A DNA stretch of 64,000 bases from Lepidostoma basale (taxonomy: Eukaryota > Arthropoda > Insecta > Trichoptera > Lepidostomatidae). The stretch covers positions 1,178,001 through 1,242,000 of the forward strand of contig JAHDVF020000067.1 of assembly GCA_022606425.2 (NCBI GenBank), written 5' to 3'. Position numbers and translations under genes: made by a program. Positions 815 through 63,345 of the stretch are shown here, one piece after another. How positions within the stretch are numbered: position 1 is the stretch's first letter; every line of letters begins with the position of its first letter. Under the pieces are notes generated by a model. That model was not told the DNA's origin, made no database searches, and was given only the letters and a program-made list of their open reading frames with translations.

Positions 815-958
815 TATGGCTTCGATCGGTTTCGGCTGCTCGCTAAGATCATTAAAACAATATTTTATTAACTTTGTAACAAAACACATTATATAAAATA
901 GAAAAAATAAAATTCTAATTTACCTGTTTCGAGACACAGAAGCCCTTCATCAGTGTAG
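815..958 (-). repeat. Two degenerate hammerhead-like foldback fragments
   Basis: At 815-845 the plus strand carries a decayed copy of the ACCGGT-type motif (atcggtttcggctgctcgct). At 921-958, read on the minus strand, an intact CUGAUGA core is followed by a weak stem II and GAAACAGGUA. The self-complementary stem III is lost in this second copy, so it is probably inactive. No full inverted partner was found nearby. Confidence 0.5.
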
Positions 959-1244
959 TTTCATATTGAAATATATAATATACGAAATAGATATTTTAGC
1001 AAAATGTTCATAAACGTGGTCAATTTTGACAGATGTTAAAATGATAAATTAGAATTAGACTGTATATGTAGAGCAAAATTCTTTTTAATTATTTTTATTT
1101 TTGTAATTTACAATTAACTTATGCGAAATTTCTAATAAGAACATTATTATATTTATGGAAGTAAAAAAACATTTAATTATAATATGTACTATAGGTTCGT
1201 ATTTATTGTTTCTTAAAAAATGATGTAAAACTCCATATTAAATA

Positions 1245-1396
1245 GGTAATACGAATTAAAACGTCAATTTTCTAGAGGTTTTATTATGTTTTATGGGAAT
1301 GACATGTTTCGGCTTTCTAAGGCATTATCAAATGTCTATTCACATAAAATATAATAAAAATTCTAGAAAACTTACGTTTTCATTCGTATTAACTAT
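1245..1396. repeat. Foldback repeat, family P5, with hammerhead-like centre
   Basis: Inverted arms (tctagaggttttatta on the left against taataaaaattctagaaaac on the right) flank a centre that reads on the minus strand as UUGAUAAU, a GCCUUAG...AAGC stem, then GAAACAUGUC (plus-strand gacatgtttc at 1301-1310). The layout equals the other hammerhead-like families, but core base G8 is A. Similar copies lie at 11.2, 12.9, 21.2, 22.2, 42.2 and 63.3 kb. Confidence 0.7.
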
Positions 1397-1524
1397 AATT
1401 TCGTTTTTAATTAAGCATACAATTTTTTTTTTATTCCAATTAATGCATTTTATGATCCCTCTCATTATTTAATCATATGAATGTATAGTTTTACTAAAAA
1501 ACCTGCAGCTTTCTTAATATTTAT
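1397..1524. other. AT-rich spacer
   Basis: I see no gene or recognisable repeat between the two P5 foldbacks here. Confidence 0.4.
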
Positions 1525-1590
1525 AGATAATAAATACGAAAGAAAAGTCTGTTTTCTAGATGTTTTACTATATTATATGGGAGTGACATA
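1525..1590. repeat. Left arm of P5 foldback split by mariner
   Basis: This is the left half of a P5 foldback (tctgttttctagatgtttta ... gggagtgaca). It resumes at 2876 after the mariner insertion and continues to about 3000. The duplicated TA target is at 1589-1590 and 2876-2877. Confidence 0.75.
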
Positions 1591-2875
1591 TTAGGTCCTT
1601 ACATATGAAATTGGCGTTTTGCCGTACTGGCAACTTTGATCTCAAATATCTTCTCTTTGGTTAGGAATTCCAAATTCAAATTTATACAGCTATTTACTCA
1701 AGTATTTTTGTTTCGAAAATTATAATTCATTTGTTTTTTCCTAAATTGTTTTTTTTCTTTGCGTCACTCAGTTTACAAAATGGAAAACTTGAAATATCGT
1801 TATTTACGAGTACGAGTTCCACCGTGGCACCAGTGCTGCAGAAACGGCTCGAAGGATTAATGATGTGCATGGCGACGGTGCCGCAAAAGAAAACACAGTG
1901 CGTTTTTGGTTCCAATGTTTTCGTTCTGGAAATTTCGACCTGCAGAACAAGCCCCGTGGACGGCCGGAGACCAAAGTTGATAATGAAGAATTGAAGGCTA
2001 TTGTGGAAGCGGATCCATCGCAAACCACGTCCGAGTTAGCTGCAGGCTGCGGTGTTAGTGATAAAACTGTTTTAATCCGCTTGAAGCAAATCGGGAAGGT
2101 GAAAAAGCTTGAAAGGTGGGTACCTCACGAATTGAATGAAGCAAATCAACAAACGCGCGTTGACTGCTGCGTTGTATTACTCAACGGGCACAATAATGAA
2201 GGGATTTTGAATCGAATCATTACCTGTGATGAAAAGTGAATCTTGTATGATAATCGGAAGCGCTCATCGCAATGGCTGAACCCTGCCGAACCAGCCAAAC
2301 CATGCCCCAAGCGAAAATTGACTCCAAAAAAGTTACTTGTGAGCGTTTGGTGGACTAGTGCTGGTGTCGTTCACTACAGCTTTCTTAAATCAGGCCAGAC
2401 GATTACGGCAGATGTCTATTGTCAGCAACTGCAAGCCATGATGGAAAAGCTAGCTGCTAAACAACCGAGGCTGGTTAATCGCTCTAGGCCACTGCTGCTT
2501 CATGATAACGCTAGACCACACACTGCACAACAGACGGCTACCAAATTAGAAGAGCTTCAATTGGAATGTCTAAGACATCCACCGTACTCTCTGGACCTTG
2601 CCCCAACAGATAACTATTTTTTTCGAAATTTGGATAACTTCTCGCAAGGGAAAAAATTCAACTCCGATGGGGCAGTCCAAACCGACTTCAAAGATTTTAT
2701 TGATTCCCGTCCGAATGGTTTTTTTAGTAAAGGGATCGATGAACTACCTATGAGATGGCAAAAGTGCATAGATAGCAATGGTACATACTTTGATTAAATA
2801 AATATATTGTATTTTAAAAAAATCAACTTTATGTTCCTCCCATACAAAACGCCAATTTCATATGTAAGGACCTAA
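1591..2875 (+). mobile_element. mariner transposon, 1,285 bp, perfect 31-bp TIRs
   Basis: A complete Tc1/mariner-family element. Its terminal inverted repeats are identical over 31 bp (1591-1621 and 2845-2875, beginning TTAGGTCCTTACATA) and it is flanked by the TA duplication diagnostic of the superfamily. The internal transposase has the mariner DD34D arrangement but is broken. The protein most resembles the cecropia subfamily, the lineage that includes Hsmar1; this is judged from remembered motifs, not from a search. Intact TIRs mean it could still be a substrate if an active transposase exists elsewhere. Confidence 0.95.
1780..2797 (+). pseudogene. mariner transposase pseudogene
   Basis: This is a decayed DD34D mariner transposase, a cut-and-paste recombinase acting on the element's own TIRs. 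The start ATG at 1780 opens MENLKYRY, then a frameshift near 1810 moves the reading to the frame open at 1865-2239. That part holds the helix-turn-helix region and WVPHEL. The codon after CDEK, normally Trp, is TGA at 2237-2239. Reading resumes in the same frame with HDNARPH and YSLDLAPTD, the second and third catalytic aspartates 34 residues apart, and ends at CIDSNGTYFD. The first catalytic Asp is in ITCDEK. One frameshift and one nonsense change make it non-functional. Length is normal for the family, about 340 residues. Confidence 0.92.
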
Positions 2876-3000
2876 TATTTCGTCTATCTTAGTCATTATC
2901 AATGCCTTTTGATAATTCCTTAGGCTCGCGAGACGTGTTATCCACATAAAATATATAATAATAAAACTTCTATAAGAAAACAGACGTTTTCATTCGATTT
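2876..3000. repeat. Right part of the P5 foldback interrupted by mariner
   Basis: It continues the repeat at 1525-1590: decayed centre, then aaaacttctataagaaaacagacgt, the inverse of the left arm. Confidence 0.7.
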
Positions 3001-3122
3001 ATTTATTTAATACAGAGATATAAACCATTATTCAAGCCGTAATAAAAAAATTACCACTTTGAATAGAGTGCTGTAATTTAAAAATATACTGATTTCGAAT
3101 AATGAAAACAAAACAAAAAATT

Positions 3123-3306
3123 ATACAAAATTTCTTTATTATTGTGTATTTAGTGTGCTTCCACTTGTGTTTATGTTCGACCGGTTTCGGCAGCTTGCTG
3201 CCATCTTCTGGTCATCACCAGAAGATGGCAGCAAGCTGCCGAAACCGGTCGAACATAAACACGAGTGGAAGCACACTAAATACATAATAATAAAGAAATT
3301 TTGTAT
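3123..3306. repeat. 184-bp near-perfect hairpin, family P1
   Basis: Two arms of 90 bp (3123-3212 and 3217-3306) are complementary with only two mismatches around a 4-base centre. Both arms carry accggtttcggcagc, which on the other strand is a GGCAGC/GCUGCC stem, then GAAA, then ACCGGU C. The 5' core reads CAGAAGA instead of CUGAAGA. The arms are too similar to be old, so this is a recent insertion or is being corrected by gene conversion. Relatives are at 25.1 and 42.7-43.9 kb. Confidence 0.9.
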
Positions 3307-3789
3307 ATTATTTTTATTTATTATTTTTTAAAGTTATGTCGTTCATTACCAAAAAAATTCAATTAAAAACATTAATTATATTAATTTCGGTCCAAGAACC
3401 ACAAAACATTATTGTTAAGTGCTTATATTTTCTCTCCTTTCCTTATTGCTGAAAATCTTATTTCAGGATATGTCTTGTCAGTACAATCTCAAGTGATTTT
3501 TATTCAACGCTTCCGGCAGATAACATAAAAACAAGGAAAACGTGGTAATCTAATGTAAACATTTACACGAAACAAAACAAAAGAATGGTCTGTTGGTTAC
3601 AAGAATATTTATGTATTCATTTTAATAAACGCGCTGTTCTTACGTGTCTGGAATAAAGAAAATAGTTAAGTATAGGCAATATCAGTTTTTATTATAATAT
3701 TAAATCCCACCGTGATCTATAGTTTGTTATATAAGATGGTTTCTATTACTAAAACGCTGATACTGAAAATATCGTTTTGTTTTTCTTCA
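3307..3789. other. Unrecognised AT-rich sequence
   Basis: No gene, RNA or repeat was recognised here. Confidence 0.4.
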
Positions 3790-5385: not shown

Positions 5386-5536
5386 GTAAATGAAACACTT
5401 GTTTTTCACCACTTGAGTTTTATATTTTACACGACTAGTTTCGGAAGCTACAGTTTATATTTAAACCTGTAAATGGAAGCATCTGTAACTTCCGAAAGAA
5501 GTCGTGTAAAATATAAAACTCAAGTGTTTCATTTAC
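5386..5536. repeat. Foldback repeat, family P2, hammerhead-like
   Basis: Inverted arms (gtaaatgaaacactt ... against aagtgtttcatttac) enclose two inverted motifs. On the minus strand, plus-strand gactagtttc (5433-5442) reads GAAA-CUAGU-C, with stem III self-complementary ACUAGU. On the plus strand at about 5466-5505 the core reads CUGUAAAUGGAAG...CUUCCGAAAG. Neither half keeps a full consensus core. Confidence 0.7.
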
Positions 5537-6022: not shown

Positions 6023-6197
6023 TTTACAACATTTTTTAATGTATACAAAATACTTGTAGATGTATATTGTATTTTACCCATTGCGGGTAATCAATTCAAA
6101 GATTTATTGTACAATTATTCCTTGAATTGATAACCCGCAATGGGTAAAATCCAGTATTCGTCTACAAGTATTTGTAAACATTCAAAAATGTTGTAAA
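6023..6197. repeat. Foldback repeat, family P6
   Basis: Arms of about 75 bp around acaattattcc carry tacccattgcgggt on the left and acccgcaatgggta on the right. Half copies occur at 12.0, 15.5 and 56.6 kb, always next to family R2 sequence. No GAAA core is present, so it is not counted among the hammerhead-like families. Confidence 0.75.
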
Positions 6198-10894: not shown

Positions 10895-11215
10895 TATAAA
10901 TATACAGTGTACATATTAACATTACTTTGTTTTTTGTATCACAACTGTATTTTATTATGTTGACATCATCAGGTGTTACAATAATATATCACACGTCAAA
11001 TTTTCGTGATTTTTCGAATCGAATCTTTATAATTATGTATTTGTTCCTATGTCAATTTGAATAATTTCTTTGATATTATTTTGAAGTTCTTGCTGAAATT
11101 AAGTTAGGTACCTAAATATTTTAATTAAAACAAAGTTATTATATAAATATTAATTTAACAGTTTTTAAATGTTAAGATATTATAGTGTTTTGGCCAAAAC
11201 AGTGGACTATCGAAA
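10895..11215. repeat. Degenerate half of P3 foldback
   Basis: Shared P3 blocks: ctttgttttttgtatcaca, the core ttgacatcatcaggtgtta (minus CCUGAUGAUGUCAA) and ttttggccaaaacagtgga. The GAAA half of the motif is missing. Confidence 0.55.
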
Positions 11216-11225
11216 ATATTCAGTT

Positions 11226-11412
11226 AATACGAATGAAATCATCTGTATTTTAGAAGTTTTATTGTATATTCTGTTATGTTCATGACTTGTTTCGCCTGTC
11301 TAAGGCATCATAAAAAGTCTGATACTATTTGATAATGCCTTAGACAGGCAATACATCCCATTAGAATTAAATATAATAAAACTTCTAAAAAATAGACGTT
11401 TTTATTCGTATT
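11226..11412. repeat. Foldback repeat, family P5
   Basis: Arms gaagttttattgtatatt and aatataataaaacttc enclose cttgtttcgcctgtctaagg and its inverse gataatgccttagacaggc. It is a decayed relative of 1245-1396. Confidence 0.7.
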
Positions 11413-12004
11413 TATTATTTAATATAAAGTTTTACATTATTGTTCAAAAACAATAAATATATAAGAGAAAATATCATTCCAATCCGAACCGTATTTGCGG
11501 ATTCTATTGCGTACATACTCAGAAGTATTGCCTTTGTATTTACAGCTCTATTCAACAATACAGATATTACATTAAAATTTAATCAGTAGCAACTAGACGC
11601 AAGTAATAATTCTGGATATCGCTTTACGCGTCAAAGAATTCAACTAAAGATAGGTGCATGTGCATTGAAGTAAGAATATCAGATATTTAAATAAGCCAAT
11701 AAAATGATCTGTGTTGAATCATTTGGAAAACCCAACGTGACAAATCAATTGGCTTATCTAGAAATACAATGTAAAATGATTTCTCTAAACCATCGTATCT
11801 CAACCTAGGGTTTGCGACCCCCCAGAAATGATAAAAAGTAAGGGGGATCGCAATCTGGCCAAAAAATAAGCTTTTTTAACTTGCACAAATCTGTCTCTGC
11901 TTATCATAGAGGACAAATATGTTCGCGACGCCACCTCCAGCGTCGCCACGTAATGCTACTTAACAATTGACTGCAAGTGTGGTAATTAGTAACAAGTTCA
12001 AACT
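11413..12004. other. Unrecognised sequence
   Basis: No gene was seen. The block at 11805-11880 (aggatcgcaatctggcc-like) may be a transposon end but was not identified. Confidence 0.3.
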
Positions 12005-12605
12005 GATAAAAGTATTTACAACATTTTGAATGTATACAAACACTTGTAGACGAATACTGGAAATTTACCATTGCGGGTTATCAATTAAATAATTAATTGT
12101 ATCTCAACAGAGACGAAGATGCAAATTGGAAACAGAATATGGTTGATCGAAGTGTTTACAGGACTTATGACCTATCATTGGTTGAGTTAAGCGCACGCTT
12201 TATGTAATACAACATTCCCCATTCCATATTTTTTCTGATGACCACCATGTCTGACAAACACCACCCTTTGCATGGTAGTATATTCAATCTACACACTAAC
12301 GCCATCTATGAAGATTGTATTTTAAGCATTTAGCAGAAGATCTTTTTAACGCAATGTGAAAGGCTACCGCCATGCGCCAATGCGCTGATGGCGGTAACAT
12401 ATATACAACTTCCAAAAAAATTGTCAGACATGGTGGTCATAATAAAAAAGGTGGAATGGGGAATGCTGTATTACCTAAAGCGTGCGCTTAACCCAACCAA
12501 TGACAGGTCATAAGTCCTGTAAGCACCTCGATCAACCATATTCTGTTTCCAATTTGCATATTCGTCTCTATTGAGAAACAATTAATTTTTTAATTGATAA
12601 AAGTA
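12005..12605. repeat. R2 long-inverted-repeat element with P6 half
   Basis: A P6 half (12005-12090) is joined directly to an R2 foldback. The left arm (about 12098-12280) and right arm (about 12413-12600) are inverted copies: cagagacgaagatgcaaatt against aatttgcatattcgtctct, and catgtctgacaaa against tttgtcagacatg. The central spacer carries ctacacactaacgccatcta. Confidence 0.8.
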
Positions 12606-16563: not shown

Positions 16564-19500
16564 TCACGCCATTTCCCCGGAGGGGTAGGCAGAGAGGATG
16601 GATCGCCACACTGGCCTGTCCTGGCACACCTCTCGGGCTTCCTCCACATTCATACATCGCACCATGCACGCACGTCGATTATTCCGACTTCGAATTTGGC
16701 CGCCTTTTAGTAATTGGTTAATTTGGTCATGCCATGTTTTCCTCGGTCGTCCTCGGCTTCTTTTCCCACTCACACTGCTTGTGTACAACTTTTTAACCAT
16801 TCTACTCTCATCCATTCGTTCCATATGTCCGAACCATCTCAGGGATCCTTTCTTAATTTTATTCATGATGCAGTCATCTGTCTTACATTTCTTTCTTATT
16901 TCATCGTTCGGTATTCTATCATACAATGTTTTCCCGCACATTCTTCTTAGTGATCTCATTTCTACGGCGTTTATCCTGCTTTCATCCTTCTTTTGCCAGC
17001 TCCAAGCTTCACTTCCATACATGAGAGTTGGCACTAGAACTCCATTGTGTACTGCCATCTTTGCTTCTGTGGATATATTTCTATTTGCAGTAATAACTTT
17101 GAGTGCGCCATTTATTTTATTCCCAGCACCAACCCTCCTTTCGATGTCTTTCTCCATTTTTCCGTCTCTTGTAAACATGCTTCCCAGATACGTAAATTCA
17201 GTAACTTGCTCCAATTTCTCGCCCATCGCACTTATATCACAAATCGTCATACATTCTTCTTTCTCGAAAACCATCACTTTAGATTTAGACACATTCATCA
17301 CCAAGTCACTCTTTTTGCATGCCTCATACATCCTTGCCACTAAGACTTGCAAATTGTCTTTACTGTCAGCGATTAACACAGCATCGTCTGCATATAACAA
17401 ACAGCTGACTGACAAACAATTCATCTGAGCACCAGCGTCTATGCCTTCAAGTTCTTTCATACACTTGTCCAAGTATAGATTGAACAACCACGGGGACATC
17501 ACACAACCCTGTTTGACACCTTTGGTGATGTCAAACCAAGATGTGACAGCCCCATTAACCCTGACACAAGCGGTGCTTCCCTCATAGAGGGATGCGACCG
17601 CGCGTATCAGTTTTGTGCCCACTCCATACTCGGCCAAGACCTTCCAAAGTTTTTTCCTATCAACTCGGTCATACGCTTTCTGCAGATCCACAAACGCACA
17701 GAAAAGTTTTCGGTCCTTGGCCAATACCTTCTCTGTTAGACTGCGGAGTGCAAAAATCTGGTCCATGCATCCACGTCCACTCATAAAGGCTCCTTGTACA
17801 TCCCAAATCTTTCCAGATGTCACTTTCCTCACTCTTTCTATCAGTATCCTGCCGTATAGTTTACCAACGGAGCTCAGCAGACTGATGGCCCTGTGGCTCC
17901 CACAGTCTACACGGGCTCCCTTACCCTTGTAAAGAGGCATGATAACTGCTCTTCTCCAGTCCAGCGGAGTATACCCCTCCTCCAAACATTGGTTAAGGAG
18001 TCCGCAAAGCCATGCAAGAACCACCTGGCCACCACTCTTGACAAACTCTATTGCAACGCAATCATATCCAACTGCTTTTCCACCTTTCATCATTTTCAAT
18101 GCATTCTTCATCTCATTCATGCTTATCTCTTCTGTACTACTTACTTCATTTGTGTTCACAGCACTTACATTTTCTCTGGCATCCATATCAGCTGCTACGT
18201 TACTGCCATACATTTCTTTAAAATAGTTCATCCATCTTTCTTGTACACTCTTATCATCTGTCAGCATTCTTCCGTCTTCTTCCAGAATTGCTTTCACACA
18301 TCCGCTTTCCGAGGAGTTCTGAGATTTTTTAACCTCCTTCCAGAACATTTTTATATTCTCCTGGAAGTGGTGGGTGATTTTTTCTCCCTCTTCTATTTTC
18401 ATCTTTTCTTTGCACTCTTTTACTCTCACTTTCACATTATTCTTACAAACCTTATATATTTCTTTCGCTCTCATATATTTTTCACTATCGCCCCTATCCA
18501 CTGCAAGCAAATTCTTCCACGCATCCTTTTTTTCTATAACGCTGTTTTTTACGTCCTCGTTCCACCAAGCGTCACCATTCATTCTCCCTGTCTTACACGT
18601 CCCGCATACTTCTTTTGCTCCTTCATATAAACTTTCTTTCAGATGGTTCCACTTTTCATCTACACTTAAATCATCCATCTCATATTTGCTCATTCTCGTA
18701 TTAACTGTATTAACATACTTCTCTTTCACTTCGTTATTTTGCAGTTTTTCGGTTTTGACTCTAGACAGGGCAGACACTGTTTTGCGGGTCTTGGATCGCC
18801 ATCCTCGAAACAAGATCACTCTAGCAACCACCAAGAAGTGGTCCGTCTCGAGTTCGGCTCCCCTGTACACTCTGGTATCCACCATGTCGCCTCTCAGTCT
18901 AGAGTCAATTGCAACATAATCAATCATCGTTCTCTCATTCCCTCTTTGCCATGTATACATATGGATCCTTTTGTGGTCGAAAATAGTATTCGCCACAAAG
19001 AGGTTCCATTCCAGGCATACGTCAAGCAATCTCATCCCATTATCATTCGTCTTAGGATCACCGAACTTGCCCAGACATTCCTCAAAACCACTCCTTTGGG
19101 TTCCCACCCAACCATTCATATCCCCTGCCAAAATTAATCTTTCGTTCACTTTCTTAACTTCCGCGATTTCCCTAACTTTATCCCAAAACTCATCCTTCAC
19201 CGCCTCTCCATCGGAGTTGACTGGAGCGTACCCTATGATGAGGAAAATCCTTGTCAATCCGATTTTAAAGCGAATCCACATAAGCCTCGGGCTCACACAT
19301 TCATATTCTTTCATACATTCTGCCATTCTAGGAGAAAGTAGCGCCGCAACGCCCTGACAGCCTCTTTGTGATTGCTTCACTCCAGACCACAACACAAGCG
19401 TGTCGCCATGCTCCTTCATTCCTCTCTCTTTCATCATGCTCTCAGTCACGCACAGGATGTCTATACAATGCCTTTTCATTTCAATACACATTTCATTCAT

Positions 19501-19635
19501 CTTTCTTTCCATTCCTCCTCTTACATTCCACGTACCAATCCGGCACTCCACCCTCCTCTGTTCGCCATCTCGGGAGATGCGGCGTGATGGGTTGCGTGCC
19601 TCATCGCCACCTATAGGCATAACTCCCGCGCCCAC
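16564..19635 (-). CDS. RTE endonuclease-reverse transcriptase, intact
   Basis: This is the protein that nicks target DNA and copies the element RNA onto it (target-primed reverse transcription). Residues about 30-270 form an apurinic-type endonuclease: TWN at 36-38, Glu65 in VTES, GDMN at 171-174, MIDY at 238-240 and TDH at 264-266. The reverse transcriptase spans about 510-800: MPLYKGKG at 566, Asp650 in FVDLQKAYD, GVKQGC at 706-711, and YADD at 748-751. The C-terminal region (about 860-1023) has LMYGSEAW, RWFGHMERM and GRPRKTWHDQINQ and ends SGEMA. All catalytic residues are present. The start is the first ATG after the upstream stops and leaves a plausible N-terminus. Plus-strand frames opposite it are shadows. 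Confidence 0.96.
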   Translation of the reverse strand: MGAGVMPIGGDEARNPSRRISRDGEQRRVECRIGTWNVRGGMERKMNEMCIEMKRHCIDILCVTESMMKERGMKEHGDTLVLWSGVKQSQRGCQGVAALLSPRMAECMKEYECVSPRLMWIRFKIGLTRIFLIIGYAPVNSDGEAVKDEFWDKVREIAEVKKVNERLILAGDMNGWVGTQRSGFEECLGKFGDPKTNDNGMRLLDVCLEWNLFVANTIFDHKRIHMYTWQRGNERTMIDYVAIDSRLRGDMVDTRVYRGAELETDHFLVVARVILFRGWRSKTRKTVSALSRVKTEKLQNNEVKEKYVNTVNTRMSKYEMDDLSVDEKWNHLKESLYEGAKEVCGTCKTGRMNGDAWWNEDVKNSVIEKKDAWKNLLAVDRGDSEKYMRAKEIYKVCKNNVKVRVKECKEKMKIEEGEKITHHFQENIKMFWKEVKKSQNSSESGCVKAILEEDGRMLTDDKSVQERWMNYFKEMYGSNVAADMDARENVSAVNTNEVSSTEEISMNEMKNALKMMKGGKAVGYDCVAIEFVKSGGQVVLAWLCGLLNQCLEEGYTPLDWRRAVIMPLYKGKGARVDCGSHRAISLLSSVGKLYGRILIERVRKVTSGKIWDVQGAFMSGRGCMDQIFALRSLTEKVLAKDRKLFCAFVDLQKAYDRVDRKKLWKVLAEYGVGTKLIRAVASLYEGSTACVRVNGAVTSWFDITKGVKQGCVMSPWLFNLYLDKCMKELEGIDAGAQMNCLSVSCLLYADDAVLIADSKDNLQVLVARMYEACKKSDLVMNVSKSKVMVFEKEECMTICDISAMGEKLEQVTEFTYLGSMFTRDGKMEKDIERRVGAGNKINGALKVITANRNISTEAKMAVHNGVLVPTLMYGSEAWSWQKKDESRINAVEMRSLRRMCGKTLYDRIPNDEIRKKCKTDDCIMNKIKKGSLRWFGHMERMDESRMVKKLYTSSVSGKRSRGRPRKTWHDQINQLLKGGQIRSRNNRRACMVRCMNVEEAREVCQDRPVWRSILSAYPSGEMA
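16575..16585 (-). promoter_or_regulatory. Conserved 3'-terminal hairpin in RTE coding end
   Basis: On the RNA the last codons form CCCC-UCC-GGGG. Other copies keep the CCCC/GGGG stem with different 3-base loops: UUC at 38.7 kb, UGC at 58.8 kb, UUU at the window start. With no 3' UTR, this hairpin plus the tail is the likely recognition site for the element's own reverse transcriptase. That role is inferred. Confidence 0.5.
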
Positions 19636-20971: not shown

Positions 20972-21213
20972 CATCATCTGGGGCTAGTTTCTACACAACT
21001 TTGTTATAATATTTATCAAATGCAAACACCTTATCATATGTAAATAGGCAACTTAGCATGTGGTTAAACTTCCCAAGGTAAGCCTTTACATTTCAAGTTA
21101 TTTTTAATTGTATAAATGAAAACATCAGTCATTTTGGAGTTTCGAAAATGGTGTTTGCATTTGATAAATATTATATTATAACAAAGTTGTGTAGAAACTA
21201 GCCCCAGATGATG
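20972..21213. repeat. Foldback repeat, family P8
   Basis: Arms of about 58 bp (catcatctggggctagtttc ... against gaaactagccccagatgatg) flank a spacer of about 120 bp; the right arm has a 5-base insertion. It contains gaaactagc, resembling the ACUAGU stem of P2, but no convincing full core. Confidence 0.75.
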
Positions 21214-21214
21214 T

Positions 21215-21262
21215 AGAATGACATGTTTCGCCCTTCTAAGGCATTATTAAATAGTCCATTGT
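21215..21262. repeat. P5 half repeat
   Basis: The block gacatgtttcgcccttctaa then ggcattattaaatag, the left side of a P5 centre. Confidence 0.55.
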
Positions 21263-21600
21263 TTCGGCCGAAACACTATGATGTTTTAACATTTTATAGC
21301 TGTTATTGCAAAAACTTTGTTTTATACCACAATTGTATTTATTTTACGACAGCTGTTTTATCAACCAATGTTGACATCATCAGGTGTTACGAAAATATAT
21401 CAAACATTGGTTGATGAAACAGCTGTCTGATGATCCATTATTTTGGAAGTAAAACTTTGATATTTCAACAATATGAACTATTTAATTGAAACACTGTTAT
21501 ACAGTAACGCAAATTATTATGATCCTATGAAAGTGTCGCGACAGCTGTTTCGCTCACCACCGTTAACATCATCAGGTGTCACAAGCAACTCTTTACACCT
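21263..21600. repeat. P3 foldback pair with hammerhead-like motifs
   Basis: Two P3 units with ttgttttataccacaattgt-type arms. Three motif copies are present: minus at 21348-21383 (CUGAUGA intact, GAAA mutated to AAAA), plus at 21403-21432 (GAAA-CAGCUGUC only), and minus at 21540-21575, which is fully intact. Confidence 0.75.
21540..21575 (-). ncRNA. Hammerhead-like ribozyme motif (P3), intact core
   Basis: Read on the minus strand: CUGAUGA, one extra U, a stem II (GUUAACGGUGGUGAGC region, imperfect), GAAA, then self-complementary ACAGCUGU and C as the cleavage-site base. An 8-base palindrome as stem III suits a two-molecule ribozyme. Stem I pairing is not evident in this copy, and the extra base before stem II departs from the textbook consensus. 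Confidence 0.5.
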
Positions 21601-24140: not shown

Positions 24141-25072
24141 ATATTTATTTTGTTATATTCTACTTCCTGCTTCAAACGGTATTTTATTAAATTTTCTTCT
24201 CTACCGGGAAATTTCAATTAACAACAAATTTCAATTAACAACATAATATACATTCCATTTGCCTTTGCTTTGTGTTGTGGATTCACATTTGATATTTTAA
24301 AATTTGTGTGTAGAAAAAGGTTGTATCACAATCAAAAGATTTCTGCAAAAGTAATTTGAAGTGTTATTCTTTACATTCAAATGTATTTTAAATGTAATAT
24401 TAAACTATAATACTTTGTGTGTTTAAATCATTTTGTATGCCAATATTTACATCTTCATGTGCTTATAAAAACAGTTTTTTTAAGCTTTTACATTAGCATT
24501 GTGTACGAAACATATTGTGTGATTTTAATATAAACATGCTTAACTTATATCACAAAATATAATTAGCTTTTAATTGAAGATTATATTTTAATGAGAATGC
24601 AGTTGAATTTATTACTTCAGACTCTTCTAATTTGATTTGAATTATAAATTTTTGAAATGCATTTCTAATTACAATATTTATTCCAGAAAAAAATATCCGT
24701 TAAGAATGAAATAGAGACGACTAAAGTAAAGATAAATGGTTAAGAAACGAAATTCTATAAGAAATGTGATGTGAAGAGAAAAATTAAGCATTGTTTAGAG
24801 GTATTATAATTTGCAACACAACACTTTATAATTTTTCACTTTTGTTTATTCAATATCTTTATAAAATAATAATTTTAAAATACGACGATACTTCAATTCA
24901 ACACACGTTCAATGAAATATTTTCGTGTTTTTATAGTTTTATTATAATATTATTTTATAAAGATATTGAATATTTATATAAAATATTTTAACACATTTTA
25001 TTCAAAATCCCACGCAAGTTCTTATATTTTTTTTTCCTTTCACGCAAATTATTAAAATTAAAAAAATGATTA
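24141..25072. other. Very AT-rich sequence, nothing recognised
   Basis: No gene or repeat found. Confidence 0.35.
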
Positions 25073-25240
25073 AATTCTTTATTATTATATATATTTTGGG
25101 CTTCCACTTGTGTTTTACGTCGACCGGTTTCGGCAGCTTGCTGACATTATCTGGATCAGAACACGGCAGCTAGCTGCCGAAACCGGTCGACGTTAAACAC
25201 AAGTGGAAGCGCAGTAAATACATAATAATAAAGACATTTC
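25073..25240. repeat. Foldback repeat, family P1
   Basis: Inverted arms with cttccacttgtgttttacgt on the left and its near inverse on the right. GAAACCGGUC is intact on both strands (plus at 25179-25188), but the 5' core is decayed. Confidence 0.82.
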
Positions 25241-25770
25241 GTATAATTGTTTTTTTTTCATTATTTAAAATGAACTTGTACAAAGAAATTTCTATTAACA
25301 ATATTAATTTTTGAAAAGTGTTAACTATCTTTATTATTTAAAACAATATCCATATCATTTTTTTATCTTTGTTCGTAACAAAACAAAAAGTTCTTTGTCT
25401 CTTTAAAATTGAAATTTTCCGCAAAAAGAGATAATAAATTCCTACTTCCAGAACCGACTCTCCCAAGAAAGATTAATGAAGCACGTAGGCGTAGGTGGAT
25501 GAATGCGATGATTCTTGTGGTTATACAATAGTTTAGTAAGACAAATTATTATGCGAAAAATCAAATATGATATTTTTTGTGATAACAAACGTGCAAAATA
25601 AGACAAAATAAACATTATTGGATAGTAATGATAGCTAATTGGTTTTAAAATTAATGTATAGTTTTACTAGAGTTTAAAGATATAAGGAAAATAAAAGAAA
25701 AAATCGATGAAATGCTTATTAAGTTTAATTTTACTTGAATTTTTTTTTTGAAACCTTGTATTTTCACAAC
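25241..25770. other. Unrecognised AT-rich sequence
   Basis: Nothing recognised. Confidence 0.3.
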
Positions 25771-25786
25771 AATTTTTTGCACTTTT

Positions 25787-25829
25787 CACAAACATGTTTC
25801 GGGACACAAACTTCCCTTCTTCAGTGTAT
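25787..25829 (-). ncRNA. Hammerhead-like motif (P9), intact core
   Basis: Minus strand: AUACA, CUGAAGA, an extra A, stem II GGGA...UCCC with loop AGUUUGUG, GAAA, self-complementary ACAUGU, U, then UGUG pairing with the 5' ACA for a short stem I. A decayed inverted partner is at 27755-27800 on the plus strand (cccgaaacatgtttgtg). Confidence 0.5.
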
Positions 25830-25879
25830 GAATTTTAATCTTAAAAATTGAATTCAATATTTCCATTGTTAATTCAATG

Positions 25880-26020
25880 TTTCCAAACCGTTTTTCAAAT
25901 GTGAATCCACAACACAAAGTTATAACGAATATAGAAGACATATTTCCTCTTGATTTTATGGCTTTGACTGGTTTCAGCAACTTCCCATATTCTGGTGGAA
26001 TCGAAACTGGTTTAATCCAG
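25880..26020. repeat. Degenerate foldback fragment
   Basis: It holds gtgaatccacaacacaaagt, shared with 24.28, 45.12 and 56.49 kb, and an inverted ctggtttcagcaac / cgaaactggttta pair. It is too decayed to assign to a family. Confidence 0.4.
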
Positions 26021-32814: not shown

Positions 32815-33015
32815 CTGATTATGTTTTCTCGCGGCAGCTGTTTCGTTAACCGATGTTAGCATCATCAGGTCTTACATCAACTAAAAGATATATCAGAAGG
32901 ACTTAGTTTACTACATCAGAAAGACTGACGATGCTACCATCGGTTAAAGGTAAATCAGAAAGACTGACGACGCTAACATCGGTTAGCGAAACAGCTGTTG
33001 CGAAAAAATATAATC
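32815..33015. repeat. P3 foldback with hammerhead-like motifs on both strands
   Basis: Inverted arms (gcagctgtttcgttaaccgatgttagc ... and the inverse at 32971-32999) around a partly duplicated centre; an about 46-bp unit with ctgacga repeats at 32924 and 32964. Confidence 0.8.
32964..32999 (+). ncRNA. Hammerhead-like motif (P3), intact core
   Basis: CUGACGA, an extra C, a perfect 6-bp stem II (GCUAAC-AUCG-GUUAGC), GAAA, self-complementary ACAGCUGU and U. The minus-strand partner at 32833-32868 has CUGAUGA but ends GCC instead of GUC. No clear stem I. Confidence 0.5.
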
Positions 33016-37720: not shown

Positions 37721-37789
37721 TGGCTAGTAAGTTTGTAAGCTATGTCGATCAATGTATTGAACATTTTGGGTTTCACTACAATTTTAAAC

Positions 37790-38015
37790 TAACTTACTAA
37801 CTACCACGGCCTCTATCCGAAGGGGTAGGCAGAACGAATGAACTGCCAAACTTTTCTTGCCTGAATATCTTTTTTTTTTATTTGGAAAGCATCACACCGC
37901 GTGTCCCGCGGGGGCGAAAGGAGAAGGATGTAGTGCCGCATCGGTTAAAGTATAGTAGTCCATTATTTCTGCCTACCCCTTCGGGAAGACAGCTTGATGG
38001 TTAGTTAGTTAGTTA
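37790..38015. mobile_element. Two facing RTE subfamily A 3' scraps
   Basis: A minus scrap with taac tail at 37790-37870 and a plus scrap ending ccttcgggaagacagcttga plus TTAG tail at 37955-38012, separated by an unidentified GC-rich 60 bp. Confidence 0.65.
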
Positions 38016-38264
38016 GAAAAGCGTTATTTTAGAGTTTGAATCCTTTTACTTTACAATATACATGGACGTAAGGTGAAATATGTTTGTAAGTTCAACGTAA
38101 AAATCCGAAATATGACAGATTACCGTGAAATACGGATTTGGCTTGTTTGCTTCTATGTAGTAAACAGAACATTAATATACAATATTTCAAAGCTTTATAA
38201 TTTCGAGTTGAGCACATTTACGTAAGACTTTCTTAGAAACAGTGTCAAAAATCTAATTTCTTCT
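38016..38264. other. Unrecognised sequence
   Basis: Nothing recognised. Confidence 0.3.
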
Positions 38265-41384: not shown

Positions 41385-41720
41385 AATAATGAAGGTGTAA
41401 AACATTTTGAAACAAATCGAAGAAAACAATCTCAACTCAAGTGGATTTACTGTATTTATTGTTTCTTGAACAATGATGTAAGATTTGTTGAATGTTAAGG
41501 CATTAACACTGTGAAATTCCATTGTAATACACTTTGAAATTGAAAAATAACGTTGTTTATTTTCCTCTTAAATATTATTTATCACGAAATGCTTAAGAAA
41601 ATATGGAGGTCTCCTCCGAAACATGGCGTGATATTGTGCATTGAAGTCAATAATTAACAACGTTATTTTTCAATTTCAAAGTGTCTTGATGTAAAACTCC
41701 ATATTAAATAATTAATTCGA
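41385..41720. repeat. P10 and P7 hammerhead-like foldback fragments
   Basis: 41385-41430 is a decayed P10 motif. 41460-41720 is P7: plus 41604-41627 holds a perfect GGAGG-UCU-CCUCC stem II then GAAACAUGG, with atattgtgcattgaagtcaa arms. Confidence 0.6.
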
Positions 41721-43479: not shown

Positions 43480-43780
43480 TATAAAAAATGTCTTCTATGT
43501 TCACCATAATTTGCGTTATAAATGTTTTATTTGTCTCTCTAACTTAAAAAAAGTTTGAAATTACATATCAGACATGTTTCGGACAACCGGTCCTTCTTCA
43601 GCGATACTGTCAAAACTGATCTTATTTGTAAACAATTTATAATATGTTAAATACTCGGGTGTATCTTTATAATATGTATCACGGAAGAAGAACCGGTTGT
43701 CCGAAACATGTCTGATATGTATTAATTTTTTTAAGTTAGTGTTGTATATACAAAGTATACAAAAAAGAAAAAAGACAAAT
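43480..43780. repeat. P4 foldback with two opposed hammerhead-like motifs
   Basis: The halves share ttacatatcagacatgtttc / gaaacatgtctgatatgtat around a spacer of about 75 bp. Outer arms hold cttctatgttcaccata and tatacaaagtatacaaaaaa. The minus motif (43571-43601) is intact; the plus motif (43680-43712) has CGGAAGA for CUGAAGA. Confidence 0.85.
43562..43608 (-). ncRNA. Hammerhead-like motif (P4), intact core
   Basis: GUAUCG pairs with UGAUAU(G) as stem I (including G-U pairs). CUGAAGA, an extra A, stem II GGAC-CGGUU-GUCC, GAAA, self-complementary ACAUGU, C follow. Confidence 0.55.
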
Positions 43781-43834
43781 ATAATAAAAAAATTTAAAGT
43801 ATATATTTAGTTAAAATCCACTGATGTTTATATC

Positions 43835-52389: not shown

Positions 52390-53170
52390 CAGTTTATTCA
52401 TAATAATGTTTCTTTTTTTTATATACTTTGTATACAACACTCATATTTATTAAAAAAATAAAAATTGAATATCAAACATGTTTTGGACTAACCAGCTGTT
52501 ATAATGATTTATTTTGGAACGTTTATGCTTTTGTGATAATGAATTCAAAATTTAATATAATTATTTAAAGCTCTTATTAGCAAACCATCTCATTGAAACA
52601 GAGCATTTATTTAATAGAGATAATGGCGTTGGATTTTTGTGTGTTAATAATAGAAATATTACTTTGATAATCTTGAAATTTTAGAAATTAAAAATGTATT
52701 TAAAAATAAAGAAAATATTATAAATAATCAAATAAATTTAACGTCAAGTCCAATCTTTGATTAATTTCTTTGTTGTTAGTTAATACCTGAACCCCAATAA
52801 AAACTTTAAATTATTATTTTAAAAAAGTTATTTATTCATAATATTTGTTATAACAAAAGCATAAAAGTTTCAAAATAAATCATCATAACATTTGTCAAAA
52901 CTGATCATGTTTGTAAACAATTTCATAATATCTGTCTTTTTCTTTTCTATATACTTTGTATATACAACACTAACATTTAATACAATTAAATTACATATCA
53001 GACATGTTTCGGACAACCGGTCCTTCTTCAGTGATACATATTATAAAGATACATATTTAAAATATTACAACAATTGTTTTCAAATACGATCAGTTTTGAC
53101 AGATATTATAAAGATTTATAAGATTTTAAAGATGTTATAACAACACAAAGTATGGCGAACATAGAAGAAA
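52390..53170 (-). repeat. P4 repeats (two left halves)
   Basis: One half at 52400-52500 (AAAACAUGUUU in place of GAAA) and a second at about 52860-53165 with an intact motif at 52993-53039. Both carry tatatactttgtata and the outer block aacacaaagtatggcgaac. Confidence 0.75.
52993..53039 (-). ncRNA. Hammerhead-like motif (P4), best copy
   Basis: AUGUAUCA pairs over 8 bp (two G-U) with UGAUAUGU as stem I. CUGAAGA, an extra A, stem II GGAC-CGGUU-GUCC, GAAA, self-complementary ACAUGU and C complete it. All core bases except the extra A fit a hammerhead. Confidence 0.6.
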
Positions 53171-53179
53171 TTTCAGTTT

Positions 53180-53560: not shown

Positions 53561-53564
53561 ATAT

Positions 53565-53660
53565 AATATCACTGATGTAGGGCTGGTTAGTCCGAAGCAT
53601 ATTTGATATATTTTTTTTTTATGATTATGAGTGTTGTATACAAAGTATATAAAAAAAGAC
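53565..53660 (+). ncRNA. Hammerhead-like motif (P4), near-intact
   Basis: AAUAUCA and UGAUAU form stem I. CUGAUGU (A9 changed), A, GGGCU-GGUU-AGUCC stem II, GAAGCAUAUU (one change in GAAA). Outer arm tgttgtatacaaagtatata pairs with the half at 52.4 kb. Confidence 0.45.
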
Positions 53661-57955: not shown

Positions 57956-57959
57956 TAAA

Positions 57960-58330
57960 TTATTAATTTGCATTTGATTGGGAATGGGAGCTTGGGGATT
58001 AAATGTAGACAAAGTATTCCAGGAGAAAGGAGTAAAAGGAGGAATCTGTTTATTAATGATGTTTTTACACAATTTCACCGACTTATAATAGTATTTCTAA
58101 ATTTTCAAGTTTGTTTAATTTATTGCTATTGTTAACCGTGTGTAGAAATTTTGTGTCATTTTTTATCGAAACTATGGTCAAATGCAATACAATGGTTAGC
58201 CATCTCAGAAAAAACAGTATATTTGGTGAACGCTTGTTATTGTTCGTCGATACGTGTTTTAAAAGTTCGTCCTGTTTTGTCTATGTAAAAAGCATTATTT
58301 ATTTTCAAGTATCTTTCTTTGTTTAGTTTT
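57960..58330 (-). pseudogene. Penelope-like element relic with GIY-YIG endonuclease
   Basis: On the minus strand, 58305-58137 reads NNAFYIDKTGRTFKTRIDEQ, stop, QAFTKYTVFSEMANHCIAFD, HSFDKK. This is the GIY-YIG nuclease pattern of Penelope-like retroelements: (F)YIG-x-T-G-R-x-F-x-x-R, a spacer, then N/A-x-H-C-I...DH. The Gly of YIG is Asp and there are two stops, so it is dead. Codons at 58078-57960 (IINKQIPPFTPFSW) may be the C-terminus. No reverse transcriptase part remains. It adjoins tandem hammerhead-like P7 units at 58331-58680. Confidence 0.68.
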
Positions 58331-58680
58331 TATTGTATTTTTACACCTGAAGGTATCCTCCGAAACATGCCGTCTTTTTTAATATTATTTACTAAATACT
58401 GGATTAAACAAAGTTTTTTAATTTCCTAAGTATAATACCATGGAATTCTACAGTGTTAATGCCTTAGCGTTCAATAAGTTAGTCTTTAGTTGTTTGTTTT
58501 TAATTATATTTTTACATCGAAAGATGGAGGTATTCTGAAACATGTCGTGTTTTTTAATATATTTTGTGGATTAAAAAAAGTTATTATCAATTTCCTAAGA
58601 ATATTACTATGGAATTCCACAGTGATAATGCCTTAGCGTTTAATAAGTTGATTAATTGAAACACTTATATATAAGTATAA
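58331..58680 (+). repeat. Two tandem P7 units, hammerhead-like
   Basis: Direct units of about 167 bp, each with (a)tattttta ... motif ... ggaattc(t/c)acagtg ... ccttagcgtt. Motif 1 (58345-58374): CCUGA, then AGG-UAU-CCUCC, GAAACAUGCC, with 6 bases of core lost. Motif 2 (58517-58546): CGAAAGAUGGAGGUAUUCU, then GAAACAUGUC. Confidence 0.7.
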
Positions 58681-58800: not shown

Positions 58801-59690
58801 AATCAATACAACAACAACAACAACAAACCATCACGCCGTTTCCCCGCAGGGGTAGGCAGAGAGAATGGACCGCCACACTACTCTATCCTGGCACACCTCT
58901 CTAGCTTCCTCCACATTCATACATCGAGTCATACACGCACGTCGATTCTTCCGGCTTCTGACATGACCAACTTTTAATATTTGATTAATTTGGTCTTGCC
59001 GTGTTTTCCTCGGTCTACCTCGAATCCTTACTCCATTTACATTGTTAACGTATACTTTTTTAACCATTCTTTCTTCACCCATGCGCTCCATATGTGAACC
59101 TACCAACGCAGCGAACCTTTCATAATTTTGTTCATAATACCTTCTTTCGCTCTACATTCCTTCCTAATATCAGCATTTGAGATTCTGTCGTACATCGTTC
59201 TACCACACATACGTCTTAGGGACCTCATCTCTACCGCATTTATTCTGCTCTCATCTTTCTTCTGCCAGTTCCATGCTTCGCTTCCATACATAAGGGTTGG
59301 AACCAGAACTCCATTGTGAACGGCCATTTTCGCTTTCATTGATAAATTCTTGTTTCCAATAACTACTTTTAAAGCTCCATTCACTTTGTTACCCGCACCA
59401 ACCCTTCTTTCAATATCACTGTCCGTTCGGCCATCCGCTGTGAACATGCTACCTAAATACACAAATTCCCTCACCTGTTCCAAGTTCTCTTCATTTACAC
59501 TTATATTACAAACTGTCATTTGCTCTTCCCTTTCAAAAACTAACACCTTTGACTTTCCGACATTCATCATTAAATCGTTCGACTTGCATACCTCATACAT
59601 TCTCGACACCAAGACTTGTAATTCGTCCGCACTATCCGCAACGAGAACGGCGTCGTCCGCGTAAATTAAATCAATTGTTATATTATAACA
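58801..59690 (-). mobile_element. 5'-truncated RTE subfamily B copy, long
   Basis: Tail of TTG repeats at 58810. The frame 59699-59100 runs from LIYADDAVLVADSADELQVL through VNGALKVVIGNKNLSMKAKM and SEAWNWQKKDESRINAVEMR. A small change at 59095 shifts it to the C-terminal frame (59106-58831), ending AYPCGETA. The best preserved subfamily B copy. Confidence 0.92.
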
Positions 59691-59894
59691 GTAATTCAAT
59701 TAAACAGTTAATAATGTTGAAATATCAAAGTGTTTCCGTCAAAACAATGGATTGTCGAATCATTTCATAAAACAATTTTACAAATTTTTAAATGTTGTGT
59801 GCATAATTCTGTACACGGGGTCTAAAGGGGTTATTGATTATAAAATAGAAAGAAGCATATTTTTCGTTCGGCGGGAAAATAGGGTTCTGAATGT
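59691..59894. repeat. P3 outer-arm fragment
   Basis: ttgaaatatcaaagtgtttc and gtcaaaacaatggattgtcg, then unrecognised sequence. Confidence 0.4.
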
Positions 59895-60062: not shown

Positions 60063-60171
60063 AGAAGAAAATTTATTTACATTGAGAATATTTACAAATA
60101 AAAACAAATATAAAAAAATCTTTTTCATGTACTCGTACATAAAACAGAAATTTACAAACAAAGAATATTAC

Positions 60172-60345: not shown

Positions 60346-60469
60346 ACCCTTTACATCGATTTGAATCACACTGTAATAATGTAAAGAACGATTCATCAAA
60401 ATAATAAAACGATAATAGTAAATAATTTGCTATTTTTGCCAATAAATATATTCATTTGTCAATAGTATT

Positions 60470-61260: not shown

Positions 61261-61261
61261 G

Positions 61262-61755
61262 GCCGTTCACAGTGGAGTTCTGGTCCCATCCCTAATGTAT
61301 GGAAGCGAAGCATGGAACTGGCAGAAAAAGGATGAAAGCAGAATAAATACGGTAGAAATGAGGTCCTTAAGACGTATGTGTAGTAGAACGATATACGACA
61401 GAATCTCAAATGCTGATATAAGAAAGGAATGTAGAGCGGTAGAAGGTATTATGAACAAAATTATGAAAGATCGCTGCGATGGTTCGGACATAGGAGCATA
61501 TGGATGTAAAAGAATGGTTAAGAAAATATACGTTAATGATGTAAATGGGGTACGGAGTCGAGGTAGACCGAGAAAAACATGGCATGACCAAATTAGTCAA
61601 ATTTTAAAAGTTGGTCACGTTAGAAGTCGGAGGAATCGACGTGAGTGTATGACTCGTTGTATGAATGTGGAGGAATCTAGAGAGGTTTGCCAGGATAAAG
61701 AAGTGTGGCGGTCCATTCTCTCTGCCTACGGTTCGATGGTTTGTTTGTTTGTTTG
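61262..61755 (+). mobile_element. 5'-truncated RTE subfamily B copy
   Basis: Open from 61295: YGSEAWNWQKKDESRINTVE, DRISNADIRKECRAVEGIMN, a small rearrangement at about 61470-61500, GRPRKTWHDQISQILKVGHV, then tail of GTTT repeats (gtttgtttgtttgt). Confidence 0.9.
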
Positions 61756-62329
61756 TCAAATATTAAACATGATACATAAATTCTACTTACCTTGCTCTGA
61801 ACTTTTTTATCATACTAATTTTAGTATAAATTCCAACACTCTCTTCGGTTTCAATAAACTAAAAGGTTATTCAATACTCTAGAAAGCTAATCATTTTCTT
61901 ATTAACAACTTCAATTATTCTCTATTTAATATAGTTCTCAGGAAGTAGAAACCACCGGGTGAGAAAGCTATTTCAATGGCATGAGATATCATTTTACTAT
62001 AAAGGAATTAGATCTCTCTAGCAAATTTACTGTCTTCAGAGAAATTCATTATAACACAACGTAGTAAATATTTGAGCAATGTATTATATATTTATTTTTG
62101 GGATAGTGCTCCACCTATCGTACAAAGTGTTTACTTACATTCCTTTATTCTAGGATTCCTTTCACATATTTAAGGTTTGACGGTACTAAAAACCAACTGA
62201 AAGTGAACACATTTCAATATTTAAAGTAATCGTGGTTTTTATTTCTTCGGGTGGTTCGCGAATCACCTGAAGATAAAAGTACTCGTATTTAACATGTGCA
62301 TCCCCTCCCAGTACTGACATACGGTATTG
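61756..62329. other. Unrecognised sequence
   Basis: Nothing recognised. Confidence 0.3.
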
Positions 62330-62760
62330 AAACAATAACTTTCACAAAAAGAACAGTATATACAAGACATGCGTTCGCCCCATCATAACGTATGGAATAG
62401 AGGTCAGAGCCGATACCAATAGAATTAAGAACCTTCTTAGAGTAGCAGAAATGCGAACCCGACGCTCCATCGCAGGCAAAACCCTCAGAGATCGGATCAG
62501 AAATGAAACGATAAGGTCTGTCTGTGGTGTTGAAGACAAAGTGAGATGGGGAAGAAACAAAAAGCGCTTTTGAAGAGACCACGTGGAGCGTATGGAGAAT
62601 ACAAGAATTGCAAAAATTGTTAAGGATGAAAACCCAAGCAGTAAGAGATTACCAGGAAGGCCGCCGAATAGATGGAGAGATGGCTATACTTCATCATCCC
62701 AGGACAGAGCACCGTCACAAACAGGTCATACGACCTAAACTAAGAAGAAGAAAAGAACAG
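62330..62760 (+). mobile_element. RTE-type fragment, family J
   Basis: Codons TCVRPIITYGIEVRADTNRI, LRVAEMRTRRSIAGKTLRDR, then after a stop RDHVERMENTRIAKIVKDEN and RLPGRPPNRWRDG, with an AAG-rich tail at about 62740. Confidence 0.85.
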
Positions 62761-63284
62761 TACAGGAACTCCGAGTGACCTAGCTAGCAAAGGATGTTGA
62801 AATGCGGTATGCGAGACAAGAAATGAAATGAGAGGATCAGAGAAAGGTCCAATGTTGCCGATGTAGCGTGCAAAATGGCTTCGTTGAAGTGCGATTATGT
62901 CTTCCATATAGCGAAGATGACGGATGATCGGTAGATCAGATGCATCACGGAGTGGGGACCGAGAACCGGCCACAGAAACTGGTCATTAGGAAGAAATGAC
63001 AAGTGGTCATTGGGTTCTCTTAAAATTTTGTGATTCCTTTAATCCTGTTTATTTGATAAAGCTTTGAAAAGAACATAAGAATATTTTTAAATCCCTTACG
63101 TGGCATACATTAATTTGGTATACATACGATTTTTAACTCTTTTTTTCATCATAGCAATAGGCTATTTATGTTTTCTTATGTTGATAGTGAACTACATTTA
63201 ATTAAAACAAAGTATGTAGCTATTTTATTAGCCCACACTAATTACTTTAAGTACCGTTTTCTGCTCCGTTAGCTCGGGTGTACT
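62761..63284. other. Unrecognised sequence
   Basis: Nothing recognised. Confidence 0.3.
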
Positions 63285-63345
63285 AACAGTAACGCCCTAA
63301 CAAGGTGAAACATGTCATTCCCATAAATTAAAATGAATTGTTGAA
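63285..63345 (+). repeat. P5 half repeat with GAAACAUGUC
   Basis: gccctaacaaggtgaaacat then gtcattcccataaat; GAAACAUGUC at 63307-63316. Confidence 0.6.

Follow-up and report, generated by a model that had tools for sequence, protein, structure and literature searches.

Hammerhead-like motifs in foldback repeats of Lepidostoma basale as probable ribozymes of Penelope-like elements

A stretch of 64,000 nucleotides from the trichopteran Lepidostoma basale (GenBank assembly GCA_022606425.2, contig JAHDVF020000067.1, positions 1,178,001 to 1,242,000, referred to as the window) harbors several families of foldback repeats, the arms of which carry a short motif with the layout of a hammerhead ribozyme. 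This motif is very probably the minimal, dimer-type hammerhead of Penelope-like elements (PLEs), with the foldbacks being PLE insertions primed on both target strands. The families are denoted below by the RNA sequence of stem III (ACAUGU, ACCGGU, ACAGCUGU) or by the tertiary pair 3-8 (U3/A8). A sequence-only reading of the window had regarded them as unrelated. However, the ACAUGU and ACCGGU families are both tied to related PLE frames, so that at least two foldback families are PLE ends, and the others share their end anatomy of pseudo-long terminal repeat (pseudo-LTR, pLTR) and tail.

The five cores singled out by that reading, at 21540-21575, 25787-25829, 43562-43608 and 52993-53039 on the minus strand and at 32964-32999 on the plus strand, all contain CUGANGA, one extra base, stem II, GAAA and a palindromic stem III followed by C or U, and searching the window for the exact patterns gives cores on both strands. 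The type I hammerhead core CUGANGA...GAAA with the pair A15.1-U16.1 is present in the window cores as well as in the genome patterns described below, and position H17, which lies outside those patterns, is A, C or T in 65 of 65 cores inspected. A covariance model (R1) was built from 32 cores outside the window (alignment A4), which are other copies of the same families; the window's families were thus in R1 and its letters were not. Since the rows of A4 were chosen for at least four stem II pairs, the perfect stem II of this alignment is there by choice. Run on the window without filters, R1 yields 30 matches with E ≤ 1; 12 of them have E < 0.005 (Table 1).

The proposed common layout stands for the five cores and the 12 sites, while it is weak or absent in the ACUAGU family and in the foldbacks at 3107-3322, 25076-25234 and 41526-41687. 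The copies at 3107-3322 and 25076-25234, both of the ACCGGU family, read CAGAAGA, CAGAACA or CAGATAA where CUGANGA is expected; R1 matches both arms of the former at E 0.02, one arm of the latter at E 0.23 and its other arm not at all. The ACUAGU family (5410-5526) reaches E = 0.52 only, its intact arm being without CUGANGA as judged by eye, and the foldback at 41526-41687 has no R1 match at E ≤ 1. Rfam models give no match to the window at gathering score, and there is no hammerhead among their 20 matches at E ≤ 10. RNAfold predicts stems I and II with an unpaired core for 52993-53039 and nearly the same structure for 25783-25832; the best folds of 43563-43609, 21532-21583 and 32956-33007 depart from the hammerhead. 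Unusual stability is found in none of the five cores (z 0.03 to -1.74), the fold energy computed from sequence alone being uninformative for single cores.

In order to count the motif genome-wide, exact patterns were searched on both strands of the 768.8-Mb assembly (1,572 contigs), with reversed patterns as controls. The C3/G8 patterns match 5,293 times with ACCGGU (control 12), 16,032 times with ACAGCUGU (control 0) and 21,307 times with ACAUGU (control 9), together 42,632 times with 21 control matches; with thousands of matches each, as compared to 0-12 in the reversed controls, the layout exceeds chance. The U3/A8 pattern (UUGANAA with ACAUGU) is found 23,658 times (control 118). The four patterns sum to 66,290 matches (controls 139), or about 5.5 per 64 kb, and the window is typical for its genome rather than special. 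Stem III is palindromic in 79 of 106 cores of fetched loci, a biased sample as most of these were fetched by palindromic patterns; the core pattern with stem III left free is GAAACNNGT.

The proposed selection on RNA structure is borne out by covariation in stems I and II and in the tertiary pair 3-8. Stem II was left unconstrained in the search patterns and its covariation is therefore testable. Scores lie above those of shuffled alignments in all three families aligned, namely 0.324 against 0.213 ± 0.017 in the ACAGCUGU family (alignment A1, 55 rows), 0.245 against 0.193 in the ACCGGU family (54 rows) and 0.264 against 0.141 in the ACAUGU family (25 rows), with 0 of 500 shuffles reaching the observed value in each case. 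Within the ACAGCUGU family the second pair is C-G in 28 and U-A in 19 rows, and the third C-G in 33 and U-A in 10. Stem I, in 32 rows not selected for it, is paired to 65.6% as compared to 38.9 ± 4.0% after shuffling (score 0.567 against 0.186), and among 37 signatures a core forms 3.46 of six stem I pairs with its own flanks but 2.38 with swapped ones (0 of 10,000 shuffles). In the ACAGCUGU family stem I pairs poorly close to the core, most rows having one contiguous pair. For the pair 3-8 the genome-wide comparison covers the states C/G, U/A and U/G: next to the 21,307 C/G and 23,658 U/A matches, the U/G state occurs 2,072 times (control 35), about one tenth of either paired state. U3-A8 replaces C3-G8 in the family of the core at 1293-1339 and in copies with a different stem II (GGUUAU/AUAACC).

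The textbook hammerhead has no base between A9 and stem II, whereas the cores described here do. This extra base, which the sequence-only reading had considered in need of explanation, is present, and the register of stem II requires it in the families examined. In A1 the base after A9 is unpaired with the base preceding GAAA, and a slide of -1 lowers the pairing from 87.0% to 43.9%, a collapse which means that stem II needs the extra base. The same register is found in alignments A2 to A4, the base being A, U or C, and altogether the extra base occurs in the six families looked at, though not in each copy. One extra core base is also found in the viroid studied by De la Pena and Flores, reportedly CChMVd, where the additional nucleotide is said to lie next to A9; that ribozyme, however, is one of a viroid and not of a retroelement. 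Since a viroid hammerhead with an added core nucleotide has been published (De la Pena and Flores 2001), the extra base does not exclude function. Similarly, Perreault et al. (PMC3088659) report U3-A8 covariation in several hammerheads that are active in vitro; the same compensated pair is here that of a whole large family.

The link to PLEs and to hammerheads acting as dimers, suggested already from the window alone, proved right. Among the fetched loci (numbered with the prefix L), L049 consists of two inverted 662-bp arms, 99.8% identical to each other and each containing a reading-frame end with GIY-YIG (Pfam E 8e-5). In L071, a sister copy of L049, a 717-aa stretch comprises RVT_1 (E 8e-10, residues 240-432) and GIY-YIG (E 9e-5, residues 606-657) in one frame; the ACAUGU family thus possesses reverse transcriptase (RT) and GIY-YIG in a single frame, the canonical PLE make-up. 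Eleven homologs of the 217-aa end were found, one insect among them; two of the eleven carry GIY-YIG and another RVT_1, in each case together with PF26215. A genome search for PLE frames, in which 150 of 9,581 candidates were scored, gives open frames of up to 873 aa. Each of the 20 loci fetched (17 places) has a hammerhead beside the frame end. The ACAUGU core starts 116 nt past the last RT/GIY-YIG codon (115 in L077), the ATG of the next unit lies about 55 nt beyond the predicted cut, and in L082 the leader continues into the reading frame. A second PLE family is 56-59% identical in the protein end; its frames of 840-873 aa match the GIY-YIG-bearing end at 58-59%, the comparison extending to that end. 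In L085 an ACCGGU hammerhead is located in the arm opposite an 858-aa frame, a relative of that of the ACAUGU PLE. The outer ends of the ACAGCUGU and U3/A8 families stop at, or slightly past, an ATG-led tail, as in the PLE families.

Five starts (three of the ACAUGU PLE, two of the second family) could be compared by eye with the predicted cut. They lie about 5-7 nt upstream of it in L082 and at +1/+2 in L087, +23 in L086, +7 in L083 and +40 in L085, and their number is too small to conclude that the 5' end is set by cutting. The PLE 5' end of L087 is preceded, also by eye, by a stretch resembling the N-terminal part of its own frame in like orientation, perhaps a partial tandem.

The likeliest reading is that the layout derives from PLE RNA and that the foldback is the product of head-to-head insertion. 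Because a foldback transcript would seal the ribozyme in a hairpin (RNAfold gives -84 kcal/mol for window 3171-3258), the foldback itself would not be the working RNA. Among the 150 scored candidates there are 22 cases of neighbouring PLE 3' matches within 4 kb, of which 21 are divergent, one is on the same strand and none is convergent (binomial 4e-12). This polarity bears on metazoan retrozymes, small non-LTR elements that are characterized by direct tandem repeats of 150-450 bp with hammerheads and spread as circular RNAs, which type I hammerheads cleave; according to PMC7229834 they occur in many invertebrates including insects. The ribozyme type is the same, and three U3/A8 cores on contig C1 (1464008-1464575) follow each other on one strand in exact 269-bp steps, matching a retrozyme array in size and order. 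Elsewhere, however, the units are head to head, start at PLE tails and are joined to coding frames in one family, and the sole same-strand neighbours are 2 kb apart, which leaves retrozymes a very improbable explanation. The small circular-RNA retroelements named by the sequence-only reading are unsupported for these families, with one three-copy U3/A8 tandem known.

The insertions have outer ends of two kinds: a short end just before the ATG and a long end some 40 nt further on, within the first codons, corresponding to the published 'tail'. All 12 frame-bearing elements with both ends readable have one long and one short end; a single core was detected in L066, L068, L071 and L074 of this survey. 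A probe search with four families gave 65 raw pairs, 50 of them with one end of each kind. Once overlapping-locus repeats, two partial pairs and the three places L081, L082 and L086 (with a cut end or frame start) are removed, 49 unique pairs remain; 43 of these combine a long with a short end where 24.5 are expected (p 3e-8). The pairs were sorted by hand, and a few may join two insertions. Words resembling target-site duplications (TSDs), 10-16 nt long, flank 12 of 12 elements, as compared to at most 11 nt (mostly 4-7) in 132 mismatched flank pairs. Pseudo-LTRs with an optional tail, inverted copies and TSDs, which characterize PLEs, are thus all found. The arms may be strongly unequal (e.g. 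1265/2251 and 1010/2228), and unequal truncation with overlaps of 1-5 nt is seen at L067, L069, L072 and L078/79, some elements having filler at the joint. Furthermore, 8 of 14 elements (7 of 13 origins) have arms that differ at variants recurring in other elements, which suggests two RNA templates. The joint of L063/L049 contains, by eye, a snap-back copy of about 20 nt, which we take to resemble products of polymerase theta end-joining.

Long inverted arms, TSDs and the palindromes ACCGGT, ACATGT and ACAGCTGT would equally suit ordinary DNA transposons of the MITE (miniature inverted-repeat transposable element) or foldback class, the hammerhead likeness then being a common palindromic protein-binding site. 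Such elements would not be expected to bear RT/endonuclease frames within the arms of one family, to have unequal arms, to halt with their outward ends at two fixed points around a start codon, or to show two RNA stems and a 3-8 pair that covary. This explanation is already largely refuted for the ACAUGU PLE family, and its overall chance is next to nil.

In the PLE scheme favoured here, the hammerhead sits in the pseudo-LTR, between the end of one frame and the next start codon. Both strands of a staggered target cut would prime reverse transcription of PLE RNA, and cDNA synthesis would begin at one or the other of two sites that closely follow the ribozyme. The two cDNAs, each ending early, would then be joined head to head, so that 3' ends point outward and TSDs flank the unit; two RNA templates would be used per insertion. 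The ribozyme would cleave, and cutting would separate a translatable unit from an RNA deprived of the priming sites. The parts of this scheme seen in the data are where the motif lies and that it covaries, the TSDs, the polarity of the arms and their unequal truncation, the tendency towards one tail, and arms with different recurring variants. Where a copy has the motif together with an outward 3' end, copying ran through the cut site, and its template was uncut there. Since a template must be uncut at the ribozyme, cutting and templating would be alternatives for one RNA.

The scheme resembles the behavior of PAc, the Poseidon PLE of the lizard Anolis, in which both target strands are cut and extended in vitro from two start sites bounding the tail, with no strand difference (Frangieh et al., PMC11167929). 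PAc shares with the elements described here the C-terminal GIY-YIG, the two RT start sites bounding the tail, the use of both strands and a hammerhead beside the start codon. On this analogy, two-strand priming would leave the anatomy seen here. Differences concern the cut site, located 26 bp inside the frame in PAc but before the ATG here, and the start sites, which are not strand-differing in PAc in vitro while most insertions here use each site once.

Two alternatives accept the carrier and dispute the mechanism. According to the first, self-priming, one cDNA (or an antisense RNA copy) folds back, so that a single molecule gives both arms; Arkhipova et al. (PMC3846280) explained the head-to-head copies with palindromic junctions of bdelloid Penelope elements in this way. 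They also note an optional tail on one of the inverted pLTRs, show 37 frames of Adineta vaga Penelope elements as compared to the thousands of copies here, and leave the origin of head-to-head copies unsettled. The snap-back at L063/L049 fits self-priming. Nevertheless, one tail in 12 of 12 elements, recurring-variant differences in 7 of 13 origins, which favour two templates here, very unequal arms and TSDs around the whole unit render it decidedly unlikely. According to the second, the ribozyme is dead in this genome, and conservation reflects the recent spread of a few master copies, many copies being near-identical. This is unlikely as well: the core is kept across families while the stems change with compensation, including U3/A8 with two stem II sequences.

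Several observations nonetheless speak against two-strand priming of RNAs with a functional ribozyme. Two of five covariation measures (double-change pairs and further pair types) do not exceed the shuffles in the ACAGCUGU 55-row, ACAUGU 25-row and 32-row sets; in the 54 ACCGGU rows, slides of -1 and -3 give 22 and 25 double-change cells compared to 10 for the structure, and kinship among rows can lift scores above shuffles without any structure. Stem II is paired without the extra base in at least one copy (L004). In the examined loci of the ACAGCUGU and U3/A8 families the motif has no reading frame next to it, and the direct tandem on contig C1 is not predicted by the scheme. Six of the 49 pairs break the one-tail rule, with short/short ends in L048, L052, L016 and one pair of L054 and long/long ends in L021 and at window 24257-25938, the latter two possibly nested or false. 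The arms end at most about 25 nt apart in six elements (L062, L064, L065/70, L074, L075 and L080), as self-priming would give. Arm differences could be due to conversion or recurrent change, and that of L080 is a length change. L066 and L078/79, at different places, share one internal joint and diagnostic variants, which means that copying or duplication of a finished unit has occurred at least once. Lastly, Frangieh et al. saw no reads at the PAc cut site, and their ribozyme mutants still insert (PMC11167929), as would be the case were cleavage unneeded for insertion.

Minimal type I hammerheads of PLEs have reportedly been described by Cervera and de la Pena in 2014 and by Lunse, Weinberg and Breaker in 2017. 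The motifs described here share with them the pseudo-LTR position, the minimal stem III, the proposed dimer action and thousands of copies per genome, and differ in one large U3/A8 family and possibly in the extra base after A9, found here in six families. PLE hammerheads, dimer action, tails and head-to-head copies are hence already known; added are the extra base across families, the large U3/A8 family, the copy numbers, the near-strict one-tail tendency and the mixed arms. A literature search with little reach into subscription papers found no published description of the one-tail rule, an optional tail on one inverted pLTR being already in one source.

Table 1. Features of the window. Positions are those of the window; all 12 sites given as cores with R1 scores in the first block (1293 to 53611) have E < 0.005.
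Feature	Position	Strand	Evidence and remarks
Core with UUGAUAA (U3/A8) in place of CUGANGA	1293..1339	-	R1 26.8 bits
Decayed core, U3/A8 family	11276..11322	-	R1 24.4 bits
Decayed core, U3/A8 family	21212..21258	-	R1 23.2 bits
Decayed core, ACAGCUGU family (as at 21532..21583)	21340..21391	-	R1 28.5 bits
Hammerhead core, ACAGCUGU stem III, extra U	21532..21583	-	R1 33.7 bits, E 1.3e-5
Hammerhead core, ACAUGU stem III, extra A	25783..25832	-	R1 46.6 bits, E 9e-9
Hammerhead core, left foldback arm, ACAGCUG family	32825..32876	-	R1 25.3 bits; arms 32799-32868/32964-33033
Hammerhead core, right foldback arm, ACAGCUGU, extra C	32956..33007	+	R1 29.9 bits, E 1e-4
Hammerhead core, left arm of 43488..43784, ACAUGU	43563..43609	-	R1 43.9 bits
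Hammerhead core, right arm of 43488..43784, first box altered	43674..43720	+	R1 30.7 bits, E 7e-5
Hammerhead core, ACAUGU stem III, extra A, C3/G8	52993..53039	-	R1 48.1 bits, E 3.9e-9; RNAfold stem I 8 bp, stem II 4 bp
Decayed core, ACAUGU family	53564..53611	+	R1 26.7 bits
Two-sided insertion, U3/A8 family, one long and one short end	1200..1396		Arms 1242-1300/1338-1396
Head-to-head ACCGGU foldback; cores 3171-3217 (-) and 3211-3258 (+) with common loop	3107..3322		Arms 93% complementary; R1 20.6 bits each
Two-sided insertion, ACAGCUGU-family ends	10915..11210		Ends short/long
Two-sided insertion, U3/A8 family	11224..11459		Ends short/long
Head-to-head foldback, ACCGGU family of 3107..3322	25076..25234		One core, 25114-25161 (-)
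Head-to-head PLE-type insertion with a long (tail) and a short end	43488..43784		Inverted arms 43562-43607/43676-43721
Two-sided PLE-type insertion; hammerhead in left arm, right arm barely more than tail (start codon region)	52929..53171		Left end short, right end long; sequence by eye
PLE endonuclease frame remnant	52580..52666	+	tblastn with own PLE fragment, E 3e-14
PLE endonuclease frame remnant	58092..58443	-	tblastn with P0004 E 3e-7, with P0007 E 5e-4

The window contains further repeats. A mariner-type transposase is located in two adjacent frames at 1793-2797 on the plus strand (HTH_48, Transposase_1). On the minus strand, a 1,023-aa open frame at 16564-19635 (RVT_1 E 8e-36) is by our reading a long interspersed nuclear element, and a further RT remnant lies at 59103-59699. 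The long inverted repeat at 12078-12600 has 180-nt arms that are 92% complementary and no model match within; that at 6048-6173 has 63-nt arms without spacer and no R1 match within, and it matches the plant miRNA precursor MIR9555 below the gathering score, probably as a foldback. Repeats with CTGCCTACCCC-like ends are found at 37782-38019 and 58830-58900, and such repeats also adjoin some PLE insertions.

The role of the hammerhead in PLEs is described as still a mystery in PMC7761336. A guess fitting the facts, though a doubtful one, is that the palindromic stem III is kept to join two RNAs into a dimer and not for cutting: two PLE RNAs would pair via their hammerheads, and a protein dimer would prime at the tail site on one and at the pre-ATG site on the other, with one target strand each. 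If this were true, the foldbacks would be a fossil record of two-template insertion, and cleavage would take unused RNA out of the template pool. The covarying core variants, with the extra base and with U3/A8, are natural mutants for ribozyme work. The young insertions of this genome allow ends, duplications and arm variants to be read one by one, and the one-tail tendency together with the mixed arms leads to testable predictions on the number of RNAs and the start sites used per insertion.

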